A DNA stretch of 64,000 bases from assembly GCF_003967195.1 (NCBI RefSeq), contig NZ_AP018725.1:2662001-2726000 (forward strand). The letters run 5' to 3'. Source of the stretch: Sulfuriflexus mobilis (GTDB lineage: Bacteria > Pseudomonadota > Gammaproteobacteria > AKS1). The first letter of the stretch is position 1. Every line of letters begins with the position of its first letter. Below the pieces are notes generated by a model. The model did not search any database, was not told the DNA's origin, and saw only the letters and a list, made by a program, of their open reading frames with translations. The position numbers were made by a program, and so were the translations under genes. Below are positions 5,404 through 10,624 of this stretch, one piece after another.

Positions 5404-5412
5404 GGCTATTTG

Positions 5413-5808
5413 ATGGATGCCACGCTCGAACATCTGCCGCCGTCTATCCAGGAACTGGTTGAAATCACCGACCTACCTGCGGCACTTGCTATCGTCGAGG
5501 TGCGCGGCGGCATTCGCTTGTGCGTGCCAAGGCGTGCGCGTGAGGACCACTGGCTGGCTGAGTTGATTGGGCTGGAGAATATGGAAAAGCTGATAGCCAT
5601 CTATGCCGGTGAAGAGATTGATATACCCCGTTGCCTTGCTGCGCTTAAAGCCGCAAAGGACCTGCAGATAGCACGAGATATTGAACAGGGTGTTAGTGGT
5701 GCTAGGTTAGCCAGAAAATATGAGTATACCGAACGTGGCATGCGCAAAGTTAAGCGTCGCCTCGAAGAGCGTGGCGAGCTCAAAGAGCGGCAAGGTGATT
5801 TGTTTTAA
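5413..5808 (+). CDS. mor: Mor/C-family transcription activator
   Basis: 131 residues of the Mor transcription activator family. The N-terminal dimerisation part carries P-x-x-I-Q-E-L and a beta strand GGIRLCVP. The C-terminal HTH runs from about residue 85 (ARDIEQGVSGARLARKY, then TERGMRKVKRRL). In Mu, Mor turns on C, and C turns on the late promoters. Only one family member is visible here, so it may act directly on the late promoters at 10625 and 18510. The ATG at 5413 is preferred over the TTG three bases upstream. Confidence 0.88.
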   Translation: MDATLEHLPPSIQELVEITDLPAALAIVEVRGGIRLCVPRRAREDHWLAELIGLENMEKLIAIYAGEEIDIPRCLAALKAAKDLQIARDIEQGVSGARLARKYEYTERGMRKVKRRLEERGELKERQGDLF

Positions 5809-6002
5809 TAGATAAGGTTCTTAATGAAGTGTAAGTTGCAGTAGTTCAGACTTGAGCTGACAGGCAGTGTCAGATGGTGCAGGTTCTGAACGTCGGCATG
5901 CGGCCAGGAGCGGCCGTTGGGTTATCAATTTATAAATCGATAGCTGACCAACTACAAGGGAACATGGTCTGTCCTCTATGATTTGCCTAATTTGCCTATA
6001 AT
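5809..6002. other. Gene-free boundary between early region and reverse cargo
   Basis: Convergent junction between the Mor-like gene and the reverse-strand HEPN gene. It contains a 6-bp hairpin CTGACA/TGTCAG (5857-5873) without a T-run. It also holds the first copy of a cargo-associated repeat, CGGCCAGGAGCGG at 5901-5913, shared exactly with 7429-7441. No ORF is supported. Confidence 0.5.
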
Positions 6003-6692
6003 TCAGGTCTGCGACGTCCACTGTCGACGTGACTCCTCAACTTTTTCTTCGACGCACTTAAAGATGTATTCGAAGTCATCGTGCCCAACCACCTTAGTTG
6101 AATAAACGGACGCCACGAACATATAGCTATATCGATTCACAATCGTTTTTGCCCGCTCAAGTAACGTACGAATATCATCGAACGTCAGTCCAAATCTTTC
6201 GCCGATGTCACCTGGGGAAAGAAGGGCTTTGGCATTCCGGTGAGCCATCCGGCTGCTTCGGTAGACCGTCAACTTCTTAACAATCGGATCAATATTCGAA
6301 CATGTTGCGATATCGTATGCCAGCGTCGTAGCATCTGGTTTTCGTGAATCTTGCGCGAGGCTTGCGACGTATGGGTTTTCCCTGAGTCGTTCGCGAAACG
6401 ACTCCTCATCAAACAAATGCAGATTCTCTTGAATCGTCGTTAGCCAATTGCGCAAGTGTAAAGCTCTTGTGTCTTGGTCGTACGCCCTAAACAGCGCATA
6501 CATACACGAATTCAAATGGGCTTGGAGCGTAAATGTCCAGAAGGTGTTCGATTGTTGGACAACTAGCGGATGCTTGTCGATGGCCTCAACCAGATCCTCG
6601 TACATCTGATAGTGAATATGTGCATCGACTACGTCGTTGGACAGCGCCTTCAACAACTGTTCGAATTCAGCGGAATCTTTGATGCTGATCAT
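6003..6692 (-). CDS. HEPN/AbiU2-like protein
   Basis: 229 residues, helical. The motif YRSSRMAHRNAK (R145 and H151) fits the R-x4-6-H signature of HEPN ribonucleases, and the surroundings (KLTVYRSSRMAHRN, then a C-terminal tyrosine-containing helix) resemble the AbiU2-type HEPN family linked to abortive phage infection. The start lies about 10 nt from the core site of an attC-like element, as in integron cassettes. Orientation is opposite to all phage genes around it. RNase activity is inferred from the motif only; another HEPN role, such as nucleotidyltransferase partner, is possible. Confidence 0.7.
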   Translation of the reverse strand: MISIKDSAEFEQLLKALSNDVVDAHIHYQMYEDLVEAIDKHPLVVQQSNTFWTFTLQAHLNSCMYALFRAYDQDTRALHLRNWLTTIQENLHLFDEESFRERLRENPYVASLAQDSRKPDATTLAYDIATCSNIDPIVKKLTVYRSSRMAHRNAKALLSPGDIGERFGLTFDDIRTLLERAKTIVNRYSYMFVASVYSTKVVGHDDFEYIFKCVEEKVEESRRQWTSQT

Positions 6693-6702
6693 AGTGTCGA
6701 AG

Positions 6703-6762
6703 GCCTAACGACTTGGGTAAGTTGCGCCGTTTTTTGGCGGCAACTTGACCCTTTTGTTAGAC
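6703..6762 (-). repeat. attC-like integron recombination site (60 bp)
   Basis: The ends are GCCTAAC (6703-6709) and GTTAGAC (6756-6762), fitting RYYYAAC and GTTRRRY. Between them GGGTAAGTTGCGCC (6715-6728) pairs with GGCGGCAACTTGACCC (6736-6751), leaving two extra unpaired bases on one arm, the hallmark asymmetry of attC sites. The loop is T-rich. It lies directly after the MltR-like gene and 10 nt before the AbiU2-like start, the usual place between two cassettes. No integrase gene is in the window. Confidence 0.65.
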
Positions 6763-6769
6763 GATATAA

Positions 6770-7282
6770 TTACCTCAATTTGTCTGGCCATTCTTTTAAT
6801 TCTCGTCTTTCCTTTTTAACGAGGCGTGTTCTCCATACTAGATCTACCATGAGCATAGACATGGCTGTACAAAATCGATCTTTTATTGTTGTATTTTTCT
6901 CAAATTCAGCAGGCCCGCGCCAAGGCAAAGAGTTTGTTAGGTCTTTTATTGAATCAGTTTGGAATGACACTTTGTCCCAATTGTGTGCAAACTTATTTCG
7001 AATTTTTCGAATTGTTTCCATTTCTTCGAATTCAATTCTGTCTATTAAACCGAGAGCAAAACATGCAGATATTCTCGATGATAGAGTTCCAAAAGGCGCA
7101 TTCGTACCCTTCAACAATTTTTCACTTTCCTTTGAGTCAATTAAAAATCCTTTTATTATGTCCCCGAGTCTATCTTCAAGCATTGCACCAGCAGTAAGCG
7201 CAGCACCTCTGTCAGTCTCTTTTGAAAATTGACTAAAGAATCGTTCGATTTCTTCTAGCTCAGGTTCCAATTGCTTCCTCAT
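6770..7282 (-). CDS. MltR-like HEPN-fold protein
   Basis: 170 residues resembling the MltR (mannitol repressor) family, whose members have a HEPN-like helical fold. GAALTAGAMLEDRLGDII, a short GTLSSRISACFALGL segment and IRKIRNKFAHNW are present. R95-x4-H100 in RNKFAH is a canonical HEPN RNase motif, so a toxin-like RNase is as likely as a regulator. The gene is visibly AT-richer than the phage genes. It is bounded downstream by a full attC-like site and upstream by a core-site remnant, giving a cassette of roughly 0.55 kb. Confidence 0.7.
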   Translation of the reverse strand: MRKQLEPELEEIERFFSQFSKETDRGAALTAGAMLEDRLGDIIKGFLIDSKESEKLLKGTNAPFGTLSSRISACFALGLIDRIEFEEMETIRKIRNKFAHNWDKVSFQTDSIKDLTNSLPWRGPAEFEKNTTIKDRFCTAMSMLMVDLVWRTRLVKKERRELKEWPDKLR

Positions 7283-7294
7283 ATATCTTTATTC

Positions 7295-7313
7295 GTCTAA
7301 CAGCATGTTATAC
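7295..7313 (-). repeat. Truncated attC-like core sites
   Basis: GTCTAAC (7295-7301) and GTTATAC (7307-7313) face each other across five bases. Read on the minus strand, GTTAGAC lies 12 nt before the MltR-like start codon, the expected left boundary of an integron cassette. The stem of a normal attC is missing, and one core base deviates from GTTRRRY, so this is a remnant or coincidence supported mainly by its position. Confidence 0.4.
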
Positions 7314-7349
7314 GGATTCCCTAGTAGTGCCACTAGTGTCGATTTGGCC

Positions 7350-7450
7350 TATTGTGCGGATGGCCGCTTTGGGTCGTTTCCAGTCACCGTACCCATTTTA
7401 GCCTTATTTTTCTTAATATGTCTGCCCTCGGCCAGGAGCGGACATTCGCA
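7350..7450 (-). repeat. Cargo-associated repeat pair
   Basis: Two motifs related to sequences beside the other cargo genes: GGATGGCCGCTTTGGGTCG (about 7357-7375) and CGGCCAGGAGCGG (7429-7441, identical to 5901-5913). They lie just beyond the 3' end of the SEC-C gene. Relatives of the first motif occur at about 9331-9350 and 10515-10540. Function unknown. Confidence 0.5.
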
Positions 7451-7482
7451 GGCTTGATATAACAAGATGAGGAAACAGACAT

Positions 7483-9162
7483 TTATTCAGAAGGTGGTCC
7501 GCGTCTCCTGTTGCGCTGCGGCTTAACGGCGAAGCCTTTTGCTATCATATTCATCGTATAGCGCTCGGCAAGGAGCTCAACCAGTTCCTTCTGAGACATA
7601 GCTTGAAGACTTTCTTGATCGGCGTAATTCGGTAGAAGTTCTATAACCCGCTCTTTCAGTGTATCCCGATAACCGTCGACGAAGAAATCGAACATCTCCA
7701 TCGCGGTCTCGACTCTCCGGTTTTGCTGCTGATAGACGCCGAAATAGGTATCTGGGTGCCTGGCATAGTCGGCTAGTTCGTCAAATGTCATGTCAAACGT
7801 AACGATCAATGATTTGTTCGTTGCCGGATCATGAAGTATGCAATGTGCCTTATCATTCATGACTGTTGCTTGCGTAAGCTTCGCATTGACTTCTACCCCA
7901 TCAGGTCCCGGTACAACATAGAACTGACCGACCTGTAGCCTCGGCGGTGGGTTAGGAACGAAAACCTCCGAAGGTAGCTCACCACCGAATGTCTGCGGAA
8001 TTTCGCGATGCTCCTCTATGGACTTAAAAAGTTGGAACATGGGCCAATGGCGTTCCCTTGCTCGCGCCGCTTCCCGCAGCGAGGGAAACTCGTCCCCCAT
8101 GAAGTCGTGTATCTTGAAGCCTTTAAACGAAATGATCGTTGCGAGCGCCGATGTATCGAGCGCGTACTGGTCATTCATGTTCGTTATGCAAACGTAAGCT
8201 GCGGGCGCGGGTTTACCGGCAATCTTCAATCCTTCCGACTGTCTTACGATGCGTTCTGCTCGGTCTATTGCGATTTCTGCTGCCTCCAGTGTATGTAGCG
8301 GCTTATTGAGGTCGAGAAAGATTAGTCTCTTGTGATCAGCTTTCTTCTCAAGGGCCTCGTAGAGTTTACGGCCCACTCTTGCACGCGAGGAAGCGTTGGA
8401 TTCAATCTTTCGCGATTTTGCTTCAACGGAATATTTTTCGCCGGTTTCTAAGTATGTAGCAGTGAACTCGCAATGCTTTGATGTTTTGTCCGACTCATCC
8501 TCGAATTCCAGCTCGAAACCTGCATTTATCAGCCATGCGGCGACCTGGGTCTCGAAGAAAGCACCTTGGAAATTGTCATTATTCTTCAGTCGCGCGATGA
8601 GTCGGGTTTGGATGTCCTTGCCGTTGTGTGTGATGAGATACAGGTTATAAGCGAGCCGGTTATAAGCCGATACCGCACCGGTCTTGGGTGTGGAGAATAA
8701 GGCACCTGGTTCTTTGGCATGCGCGGCTTGAAGGTGGCAGACTTTGTCGTACCACTGAATTAATGGATGACGCTCTGCCAGAGGTTTGGCAATCTCGGCA
8801 TTGCCCCATTCGCTACCCAACGTATGCTTGATGTAATTGGCCAAGAAATCGGGGAAACTCTTCCATTTCCCGTAGTGAAATTTGTTCCCGACTGCGACGA
8901 ACCGGTATCCCTTGTGCTCCGTCGATATAATCGGTCGGCCCAACCCCTGTTGCTTCTGCCGTTGGAGTTCTTGGGCCTTGTGTTTCTCGAAAAGACGCCG
9001 ACCCTGTTCGATGATCTCCTTTTCAGCTCTATCCTGGGCAAGCAGGGCTGGGATCGTATGCTGCACCCCACCGTGACAGAGCTTGAATTTTTTGCCGCTG
9101 CCGCAAAAGCATGGTTGATTGGGGCCGATCTTGGGGCCGCGACGAAAAGGGGTATTAGTCAT
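7483..9162 (-). CDS. SEC-C motif protein with PD-(D/E)XK nuclease-like centre
   Basis: 559 residues from the ATG at 9162 (an upstream TTG would add five). The N-terminus has a complete SEC-C zinc motif, C18-x-C20 ... C29-H30. The centre (about 200-250) reads FETQVAAWLINAGFELEF, then CEF, then VEAKSRK. The helix Glu204, Glu232 and E247-x-K249 match a PD-(D/E)XK nuclease core. The C-terminus is unassigned. SEC-C plus restriction-like folds are known from uncharacterised accessory genes. A DNA or RNA nuclease with defensive role is inferred from fold signature, reverse orientation and cargo context. Confidence 0.6.
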   Translation of the reverse strand: MTNTPFRRGPKIGPNQPCFCGSGKKFKLCHGGVQHTIPALLAQDRAEKEIIEQGRRLFEKHKAQELQRQKQQGLGRPIISTEHKGYRFVAVGNKFHYGKWKSFPDFLANYIKHTLGSEWGNAEIAKPLAERHPLIQWYDKVCHLQAAHAKEPGALFSTPKTGAVSAYNRLAYNLYLITHNGKDIQTRLIARLKNNDNFQGAFFETQVAAWLINAGFELEFEDESDKTSKHCEFTATYLETGEKYSVEAKSRKIESNASSRARVGRKLYEALEKKADHKRLIFLDLNKPLHTLEAAEIAIDRAERIVRQSEGLKIAGKPAPAAYVCITNMNDQYALDTSALATIISFKGFKIHDFMGDEFPSLREAARARERHWPMFQLFKSIEEHREIPQTFGGELPSEVFVPNPPPRLQVGQFYVVPGPDGVEVNAKLTQATVMNDKAHCILHDPATNKSLIVTFDMTFDELADYARHPDTYFGVYQQQNRRVETAMEMFDFFVDGYRDTLKERVIELLPNYADQESLQAMSQKELVELLAERYTMNMIAKGFAVKPQRNRRRGPPSE

Positions 9163-9330
9163 GAAGTAAGTACGCAAGCGGTAGCAACTGCATCATGAAA
9201 GCCTCAAACTTTTTTACCCACGCCCACATAAGCATCACGTAGCGCTCTGGCAAACACTGTGCCGCGTGTACACGGGGCACACACCTTTTTCCAGAACCTC
9301 TAACATCCGCATAATTTTATCAGTCACCTC

Positions 9331-9363: not shown

Positions 9364-10452
9364 TCAATCATCATCACTACCAATCAGTAAACGGAACCGC
9401 ACTGGATGATGATCAGAATAACGTACCCGAAACGCGTTGTGGTTATATGGATCATCGCCTGGGTATGGCTGGTTAAAATCTTCAAACCACGGTACACGCA
9501 TTGCATCAATGAGATTAATTACCTCAAACTGTCCACCCTTTACCAAACCATTCGTGCTGGAAGCAGGGTGTAGCACATTGTCATATGGTTTTGGCCCGTT
9601 AACGTTAGTATTTGTAGTTAGACATGCAGTGCCCGTATTGAGTGCCTGAAAACCTGTAGGCACAATTGCTGCTATCTCGGCACAATTCTTAAAGTTCATA
9701 TCGCCGAGTATAAAAAAATCCTTTTCATCGTCATCATTAGCAGTCACCCAACTGGCTATCGCATCGAGTTCATGCTCGCGTCGTTCTTTATCTGCGTTCC
9801 GATCACCGGGTTTTAAGTGGACGGATATCAGTACAAAGTCATTACCGCCGGTGAGTGTGCGAAACGCTGCAGCATAGGGTACGCGTTCATAATCATCATG
9901 GTTGCCGCGTTTGCCTGCTAAAAATCCATTCGGTAAGTCTGCGGCAAGCTCAACGAGTTCAGGCTTATAGAAGGTTACCCACCATTCAGTCGCGGTACTA
10001 TTCACATGAATTTTGTCTTTTGTGCCGGTATCTTCTTCAGATAGAATAAAGTCATAACCATTCGCCGTCATCGCTTCAAAAAAACGTCGAGCCTCTGTAT
10101 CAGGGCGATAGGCTGTGCCATCAGGAAAGGTGCCATCGAATGGTGGGGCCACCAGCTCCTGTACGACAACGATGTCAAACGGTGACAACAACGCGGCCAG
10201 AGCAGTGTCGTCACGGTTCTTGAAATTTCCCAGGAATTGGATATTGAATGATACGACATCCAGGTGGCCAGCCGTGGGATCGACAAAGAAGGGAGATATA
10301 CAATCATCATGATGACAATGGTACTCACCGGTGGCACGGTTTACATGCCCACCGTTGTCATCTACTCCGCCCGGGTGTGCTTGCAGTAGTGGAGTTATCA
10401 GCAATCCTAACCATAAAACTGCAATGCGACATTTGACAGGTAGTGTATTCAT
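9364..10452 (-). CDS. Secreted endonuclease/exonuclease/phosphatase-fold protein
   Basis: 362 residues from the ATG at 10452. A signal peptide (PVKCRIAVLWLGLLITPLLQ ending QA) is followed by HPGGVDDNGGHVNRATGEYH and CHH, a His/Cys-rich motif seen in extracellular nucleases. The DNase I-like domain follows: VVSFNIQFLG, VVVQELV, SVHLKPGD, ILGDMNF and a final SDHHPVRF. These are the metal-binding Glu, the catalytic Asp/Asn and the terminal His of the family. It is probably an exported DNase. It sits at the outer end of the reverse cargo block, next to the lysis promoter, and its role in a prophage is unclear. Confidence 0.8.
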   Translation of the reverse strand: MNTLPVKCRIAVLWLGLLITPLLQAHPGGVDDNGGHVNRATGEYHCHHDDCISPFFVDPTAGHLDVVSFNIQFLGNFKNRDDTALAALLSPFDIVVVQELVAPPFDGTFPDGTAYRPDTEARRFFEAMTANGYDFILSEEDTGTKDKIHVNSTATEWWVTFYKPELVELAADLPNGFLAGKRGNHDDYERVPYAAAFRTLTGGNDFVLISVHLKPGDRNADKERREHELDAIASWVTANDDDEKDFFILGDMNFKNCAEIAAIVPTGFQALNTGTACLTTNTNVNGPKPYDNVLHPASSTNGLVKGGQFEVINLIDAMRVPWFEDFNQPYPGDDPYNHNAFRVRYSDHHPVRFRLLIGSDDD

Positions 10453-10624
10453 CCTTGTTACCCTATTTAATGTATCATTATTAAGAATAAAGTGGTCAGT
10501 ACTCTTTTCCGATGACAGCCACAGGTCGTTTCCGGCCATTCAATTATCTAATGTCGACTATCTGAACGGTTGCGCCATAATGTGCGATCAATTATCGTGT
10601 AATTAAGAAGAATAGTATACCCTC
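10453..10624. other. Intergenic region between reverse nuclease gene and lysis promoter
   Basis: AT-rich, with no ORF. It contains ACAGGTCGTTTCCGGCCATT around 10521-10540, a weaker relative of the cargo repeats. It probably holds the promoter of the reverse nuclease gene and ends at the late-promoter palindrome. Confidence 0.4.

Follow-up and report, generated by a model that had tools for sequence, protein, structure and literature searches.

An attC Site and an Integron-Type Gene Cassette with a HEPN Gene in the Cargo Interval of a Mu-Like Prophage

The Prophage and Its Cargo Interval

The window, that is, the whole stretch of 64,000 nucleotides of the Sulfuriflexus mobilis genome analysed here (2662-2726 kb), carries a prophage. 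Its Mu-like nature, proposed in the initial annotation, is borne out by profile matches to DDE_2 (4.2e-52), Mu-transpos_C (3e-11), Mor (Table 1), and Portal_Mu (5e-110). There is also a match to the DNA transposition protein PHROG_296 (7.3e-65), and a MuB-like ATPase, a transglycosylase, and a terminase are encoded in the left part of the window. Between the end of the Mor-like gene (5808) and the lysis genes (from 10675) lies a cargo interval of 4.9 kb with four left-pointing genes. These are gene B, gene A, and the genes of a 564-aa SEC-C protein and of an exo/endonuclease-like protein. The SEC-C zinc-motif protein (7483-9177, reverse strand) has, by eye, a nuclease-like E-x-K stretch. The last gene (9364-10539, reverse strand) is called exo/endonuclease/phosphatase-like from a match below cut-off.

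Table 1. Features in and around the A and B genes, in window positions.
Feature	Position	Strand	Basis
Mor-like late activator, phage side of the cargo interval	5410-5808	+	PF08765 4.1e-10, PHROG_836 6.8e-28
Flanking palindrome-like repeat, left copy, containing CGGCCAGGAGCGG at 5901-5913	5890-5922	+	13-mer search
Gene B, 229 aa, HEPN_AbiU2 protein	6003-6692	-	PF18734 1.2e-24
attC site	6703-6762	- (cassette orientation)	Covariance model R1, fold, shuffles
Gene cassette A (592 bp), extending from TTAGAC as far as the G in the R' box of the attC	6709-7300	-	Sequence and cleavage rule
Gene A, 170 aa, HEPN protein of MtlR/DUF4145-like group	6770-7282	-	Pfam, PHROG, structure profiles
Left recombination junction: GTATAAC (7307-7313), spacer ATGCT, GTTAGAC (7295-7301)	7295-7313	-	Sequence
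Flanking repeat, right copy, 13-mer at 7429-7441	7418-7450	+	13-mer search

Related phages show how variable this interval is. A terminase scan of viral contigs returned five loci, namely the phage's own record and four relatives with 64-77% identity. Left-pointing ORFs of at least 80 aa occupy the same interval in two of the relatives (L021, L022) and differ from those found here; there are none in a third (L023), and in the fourth (L024) only ones overlapping right-pointing ORFs. Hence, the region between Mor and the lysis genes looks like a place of cargo turnover. In the stretches compared from the four relatives (10-22 kb each), none of the four cargo genes had a counterpart at E 1e-4, and no attC was matched up to E 10. 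The initial annotation had considered that relatives might carry the element between A and B as ordinary phage sequence present without the genes; with 0/4 having an attC or homologs of A or B in these stretches, this is ruled out for the available relatives. Outside the genome of the window, A and B were found together only in one IMG/VR record of the phage, which is identical over the stretches compared and gives the same attC match. The transfer of the cassettes between hosts without an integrase, proposed in the initial annotation, is accordingly a conjecture.

The attC Site

The two genes are separated by a 60-bp element, for which RYYYAAC and GTTRRRY ends and an asymmetrically bulged stem had been described. 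Both features are present. On the reverse strand, the element runs from GTCTAAC (RYYYAAC, the R'' box, 6756-6762) to GTTAGGC (GTTRRRY, the R' box, 6703-6709). Its forward strand, with hyphens between the parts, reads GCCTAAC-GACTT-GGGT-AAGTTG-CGCC-GTTTTTT-GGCG-G-CAACTT-G-ACCC-TTTT-GTTAGAC. The forward strand of the window corresponds to the folded bottom strand of the site. In this fold, the R boxes are complementary and are followed by unpaired spacers of 5 nt (6710-6714) and 4 nt (6752-6755), and then by the stem. In the bottom strand of an attC, extrahelical bases are expected on the L'' side. Here, two extrahelical G's, G6740 and G6747, stand on the 3' arm, so that the element forms an imperfect hairpin with unpaired spacers and with two G bulges on the expected arm. 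The stretch 6706-6765, shifted by 3 nt, folds better than its own shuffles (z -4.2 on the reverse and -3.8 on the forward strand), equally good shuffles being 0/200 and 1/200, respectively. Since the two strands of this stretch fold about equally, folding energy alone favours neither of them.

A covariance search with an attC model, suggested in the initial annotation, was carried out with a home-made model, R1, whose E-values are rough owing to a short calibration. R1 was built from 31 attC sites lying beside integron integrases in nine other genomes, with none from the S. mobilis genome. The source material was 20-kb stretches beside integron integrases of 20 genomes of the wider class (10 at full length, 3 of 1.2-4.3 kb, and 7 on contigs ending within 400 bases). 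The training sites are a subset of the candidates, chosen by eye on a score of at least 35, a length of at most 73 nt, core boxes, stem, and position in an array; a hand-made attC score helped in this selection. Covariation is visible in the resulting alignment, compensatory changes being present at 11 of its 15 pairs. Three training genomes (G083, G167, and G043) recur among those with relatives of gene A or B. The A relative of G083 and the B relative of G167 lie apart from the training stretches, and the B relative of G043 has no attC match.

As controls, R1 was run on phages TJE1 and M16-3, which are named as attC carriers in the available text of PMC9892861. It gave 3 matches at E<=1 in the former (26-35 bits) and 9 in the latter (14-30 bits), counted per phage and not site by site. 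Among ten further loci scanned, no match at E<=1 was obtained in the negative controls L006, L008, and L009 (own genome, 60 kb) or in L058, L079, and L080.

In the window, R1 matches the element over its full length (model positions 1-61) with 43.0 bits and an E-value of 7.6e-8; the same site has an E-value of 3.7e-6 in the whole-genome search. No second attC was found in the window, the next match reaching only 12.9 bits (E 0.74; search up to E 10), and Rfam at gathering scores had no match there. The hand-made score is 47.0 for the element. This value was reached in 0/300 shuffles of 5800-7500 and in 0/40 shuffles of the whole window, the best shuffles scoring 42.5 and 43.0, respectively.

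A stem-loop between co-oriented, operon-like genes, whose two strands fold about equally, might also be a chance inverted repeat or a transcription terminator. However, a chance hairpin or terminator is ruled out by the R1 match, by the shuffles, and by a terminator scan that found none in the region. Moreover, it would leave the two core boxes, the G bulges on the expected arm, and the attC sites found at the same place in relatives of gene A to coincidence, and we give it next to no probability. In all computational tests, of sequence as well as of structure, the 60-bp element is an attC. It is a single site with no integrase beside it; it is thus neither a complete integron nor a CALIN, for which at least two attC sites are needed.

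Gene A and Its Cassette

In all the features tested, cassette A corresponds to an integron gene cassette, with one ORF, a structurally canonical attC close behind it, and a G|TTRRRY core site upstream. Its boundaries were deduced from the G|TTRRRY cleavage rule, as given in the available text of PMC9892861. The stop codon of gene A is 7 nt from the attC, and its start codon 12 nt from the core box GTTAGAC, which is the core-site remnant already noticed before this gene. The start codon of gene B follows the R' box of the attC by 10 nt. The distances agree with the 10-13 nt first reported for the two start codons.

The product of gene A matches the Pfam family MtlR (3.3e-6, above cut-off) and, below cut-off, DUF4145 (0.0012). 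It also matches PHROG_22031 (5.1e-33) and, in profile searches, the MtlR structures 6kcr (1.3e-9) and 3brj (1.1e-5). Used alone as a query, gene A found no relative in the genome collection. An alignment of five rows (A and four relatives) retrieved 217, of which 80 were kept. The sites adjoining these genes were picked by eye among attC matches with E-values up to 1 and then checked by coordinates, the weakest one counted having 21.4 bits (E 0.078). On this basis, an attC abuts the gene in 19 of the 80 relatives kept, including the closest of them, that of Pseudomonas sp. BMS12 (51% identity), and the other 61 have no adjoining attC. In 17 of the 19 cases, the start of the attC falls within a range from 12 nt ahead of the ORF end to 49 nt past it; in L116 and L162, the attC overlaps the ORF by 86 and 56 nt, respectively.

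The 50 relatives on viral contigs include a single one with an attC, namely the record of the phage of the window itself. The 369 genomes of the class contain three relatives besides gene A. The copy of G083 lies between attC sites of an array, and the other two have no attC alongside; the same holds for L079 and L080, the relatives of A and B examined on plasmids. All in all, the family of gene A appears, from these gene neighbourhoods, often to ride in integrons.

A tree of the family was calculated from 100 of 127 rows, 27 rows with less than 34% identity being removed; L195 (identical to the window), L164 and L242 (short), and L244 (no tblastn match) were also left out. A supported set of 15 comprises 7 cassette-borne members, including A, 7 others, and 1 viral member. 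Over the whole tree, members labelled "cassette" do not group together significantly (15 changes of label; as few were seen in 48 of 500 shuffles). Hence, the tree does not by itself prove the descent of A from cassettes, and members of the family have probably moved into and out of cassettes on many occasions.

Gene B

For gene B, the situation is different in one respect. R1 found no attC downstream of it in the window, so that gene B has the upstream core site only and falls outside the definition of a cassette. Its family occurs, at E 1e-8 or better, in 8 of the 369 class genomes, own genome included. Two of the seven relatives (G167 and G039) directly abut an attC at the stop codon and five do not; in one of these five, G147, an attC lies beyond one further small ORF. 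The closest relative (G339, 54%) has no attC match within about 1 kb on each side. By eye, inverted copies of a sequence of about 38 bp flank this relative (L113, gene at 1501-2199, copies at 1414-1451 and 2217-2254), as if the gene had moved as a unit of its own.

It may thus be asked whether only A is a cassette and B an older cargo gene of the phage, whose GTTAGGC before the start codon served as the insertion site. The missing attC of B and the five relatives not directly abutting one would agree with such a history. On the other hand, B starts 10 nt from a core box, as cassette genes do, two of its relatives are in cassettes, and no phage with B alone was found. We consider this history rather doubtful. 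Gene B, with no attC of its own, probably represents a second cassette or else the gene that closed a captured array; it is probably a cassette by ancestry that lies outside the definition. Accordingly, the plural "gene cassettes" of the initial annotation holds in part: A is a complete cassette, and B, having no attC downstream, counts as one by position and by the habits of its family.

Predicted Function of the A and B Products

Both genes had been described as HEPN-type genes with R-x4-6-H motifs, and the family hits as well as the motifs agree with this. Gene A encodes R95-x4-H100 (RNKFAH), invariant across 5 aligned proteins, and gene B R145-x5-H151, invariant across 4. Single-sequence structure predictions are all-helical for both products, with pLDDT values of 42 and 43 that are too poor for fold searches; as regards the fold, the HEPN assignment therefore rests on the family hits. 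PADLOC reported nothing for A or B.

In the available text of a review of the HEPN superfamily (PMC3710099), an "Integron cassette HEPN" family is listed along with the MtlR, DUF4145, and AbiU2 groups. There, the AbiU2 and DUF4145 types are linked to abortive infection or restriction, and a large part of the MtlR-type proteins is predicted to be, or probably is, inactive. The products of A and B are probably RNA-directed effectors. As passengers of the prophage, they would most likely cleave or bind RNA and could be useful to the lysogen against other phages.

Integrons and attC Sites of the Host

Two genes of the host genome, at 236.9 kb and 2300 kb and both away from the window, encode integron integrases that score 457 and 421 bits against a cut-off of 265. 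Their match to the model stops at position 297 of 315, and the part that should hold the catalytic tyrosine is, by eye, missing from both; the integrase of G002, from the same genus, matches positions 1-315. From these truncations, both host integrases are probably dead. A repeat of about 64 bp (95% alike) ends both genes in place of the catalytic-tyrosine end (236834-236897 and 2300950-2301013, the latter being L007 16951-17014). A third copy (600718-600766, L078; 88% over 49 bp) lies, apparently in frame, within a leuS-like gene, as judged by eye. Thus, both host integrases seem to have been silenced by a short repeat that occurs in coding genes.

With R1, at least 28 attC sites, including that of the prophage, were found at E<=1 in the genome, 150 of 1464 candidates having been scored. 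They make up two arrays beside the integrases and clusters at 179-183, 475-482, and 659-664 kb; others are single or paired elsewhere. The two 26-nt arms of the prophage attC were compared with those of 63 other sites (27 of the same genome and 36 of others). The nearest were the sites at 660788 and 662739 in the 659-664-kb cluster, with 79% of the arm letters identical, and the next reached 69%; mean identities are 0.62 to own and 0.60 to other sites. The nearness to a host cluster points to a cassette pool like that of this host as the source. At the protein level, no second copy or relative of A or B was found in the genome, only weak matches.

Further observations were made on these host elements. 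Near-identical insertion sequences with two ORFs (123 and 284 aa) are present in both chromosomal arrays (L005 6228-7450 and L007 13063-14285). Three proteins of host cassettes show an R-x4-H motif by eye, those encoded before the attC sites at 660788 (297 aa) and 179556 (150 aa) and that of L005 4045-5226. The 297-aa protein has weak matches to DUF4145/HEPN below cut-off, and the other two have no HEPN family match; HEPN-like cargo may be common among the cassettes of this host.

An attI-like motif, CTAATTATAGTTRG, occurs at 300222, 1469085, 1975387, 2299908, 659107, 661289, and, with one letter changed, 2152581 (L254-L257, L259-L261), and in six of these seven copies, TTTTAGG or a variant differing in one letter stands immediately before the motif. 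The copy at 2299908 is beside an integrase gene, four others precede an attC by 0.2-0.4 kb, and that at 1469085 has no attC near. A search with up to one mismatch gave 8 places (4 exact) vs. 3 for the reversed control pattern. They are possibly dispersed attI-like sites without integrase.

Entry of the Genes into the Phage

The left junction is an inverted pair of core-like boxes with 5 bp between them. It has no attC match with R1 up to E 10. A host attI was also considered and ruled out for this junction, as the motif CTAATTATAGTTAG is absent from it even with one mismatch allowed. The arrangement of GTATAAC, inverted at 5 bp from GTTAGAC, resembles the paired boxes of double-stranded integrase targets. 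As the junction is unlike an attC and unlike the attI-like motif of the host, the case for capture by IntI turns here on one short core box. Nevertheless, cassette A is bounded on the left precisely by a core box, before which lies the inverted GTATAAC, and this makes insertion by an integrase likely. We therefore regard it as probable that cassette A, along with the probable cassette B, was inserted by an integron integrase into the cargo interval of a Mu-like phage at a non-attI, non-attC site.

The steps can be outlined as follows. An integron integrase would have inserted an array from a host like this one into the phage at GTATAAC-ATGCT-G|TT. Given that the integrases of the present host are probably dead, this would have happened earlier or in another host. 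A and B would now be passenger (moron) genes of the phage, and transposition and packaging of the phage would carry the cassette along. In a new host, an active IntI could excise the cassette and file it into the integron of that host. Under capture by an integrase, the empty site is expected to read ...GTATAACATGCTGTT..., with no flanking repeats. In the four related phages, the flanks 5809-6002 and 7302-7480 had no blastn counterpart and no empty site was seen, nor was a phage devoid of the insert at the exact junction found.

The surroundings of the two genes bring in another route. The 13-mer CGGCCAGGAGCGG occurs at only two places in the 3.11-Mb genome, both flanking the A and B module and in direct orientation, and this pair could mean that ordinary or illegitimate recombination brought in a longer stretch. 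The joined array A-attC-B would then have been taken passively from a cassette cluster of the host, for instance through the repeats at 5890 and 7418, with no action of an integrase on phage DNA. The absence of an attC behind B and the closeness of the prophage attC to a host cluster also agree with such a passive capture, and routes of this kind are proposed for phage cassette clusters in the available text of Qi et al. (PMC9892861). Two observations speak against it. GTTAGAC, a canonical core box, coincides exactly with the left edge of cassette A, and there is no attC upstream of it; moreover, A and B match only themselves at the protein level in their own genome, so that no donor cluster is visible there. 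We judge passive capture to be unlikely.

Insertion by an integrase, if accepted, would have a broader bearing. More tentatively, integrase action at a non-attI site in the cargo interval may have brought cassettes with defence-type genes directly into a transposable phage. Mu-like phages might then use the integrons of their hosts as a gene library and be able to hand cassettes to hosts with a working IntI; we advance this generalisation as a possibility. Integrons are large and mostly uncharacterised gene libraries, and Mu inserts almost anywhere. When a transposable phage carries a cassette whose attC is intact, the integron gene store becomes linked to such a broadly inserting vehicle. With one phage, one cassette, and one junction, the route by which genes leave a sedentary integron would become testable. 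The cargo consists here of HEPN proteins, which are frequently connected with phage exclusion, and a prophage-borne cassette with a probable defence gene indicates how such genes can travel on a virus.

Comparison with Known Systems

Integrons are presented as stores of anti-phage genes in recent papers (via the available text of PMC12444791), and integron parts in phages are documented. According to the available text of Qi et al. (2023, PMC9892861), integron parts were detected in 21 of the 10,705 phage genomes screened: 3 integrons were complete, 1 case was an integrase with no cassettes, and the other 17 were CALINs, clusters of attC sites that lack an integrase. Five of six phage attC sites assayed recombined with attI1 by IntI1. 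Some of the phage-borne integrons are edged by inverted or multiple GTTRRRY motifs, and off-target homologous or illegitimate recombination is raised there as a possible route. The present locus resembles these cases by its attC-bearing cassette(s) in a phage without intI. In contrast, the carrier is here a Mu-like phage and has one attC, where the CALINs have at least two. The cargo also differs, since methyltransferases and a toxin-antitoxin pair are named in that study and the term "HEPN" is absent from its main text. The Shewanella prophage M16-3 (MZ568829), one of its cases, likewise has integron parts in a prophage; however, it belongs to the Peduoviridae (P2-like), has its own intI, and is not transposable. 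It was thus rejected as a Mu-like precedent.

HEPN proteins in integron cassettes were described by Anantharaman et al. (2013, PMC3710099), with MtlR, DUF4145, and AbiU2 groups related to A and B. The cassettes treated in the available text are those of bacterial integrons, and none is mentioned there in a phage. In the available texts of PMC9892861, PMC4119200, PMC8386436, PMC12342005, and PMC11434368, no cassette in a Mu-like phage is described. A literature search for a Mu-like or transposable phage with an integron cassette gave no case, most subscription papers and all preprints lying outside its scope.

Finally, cassettes can also be inserted at sites of another kind than attI or attC, called attG (Loot et al., 2024, as cited in the available texts of PMC12444791 and PMC12901181). 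The cassette described here would share with them the insertion at a non-attI, non-attC site, the target being phage DNA in the present case. Phage-borne cassettes as such are thus already published; what is uncommon at this locus is the carrier, a transposable phage, and a single attC that serves HEPN cargo.
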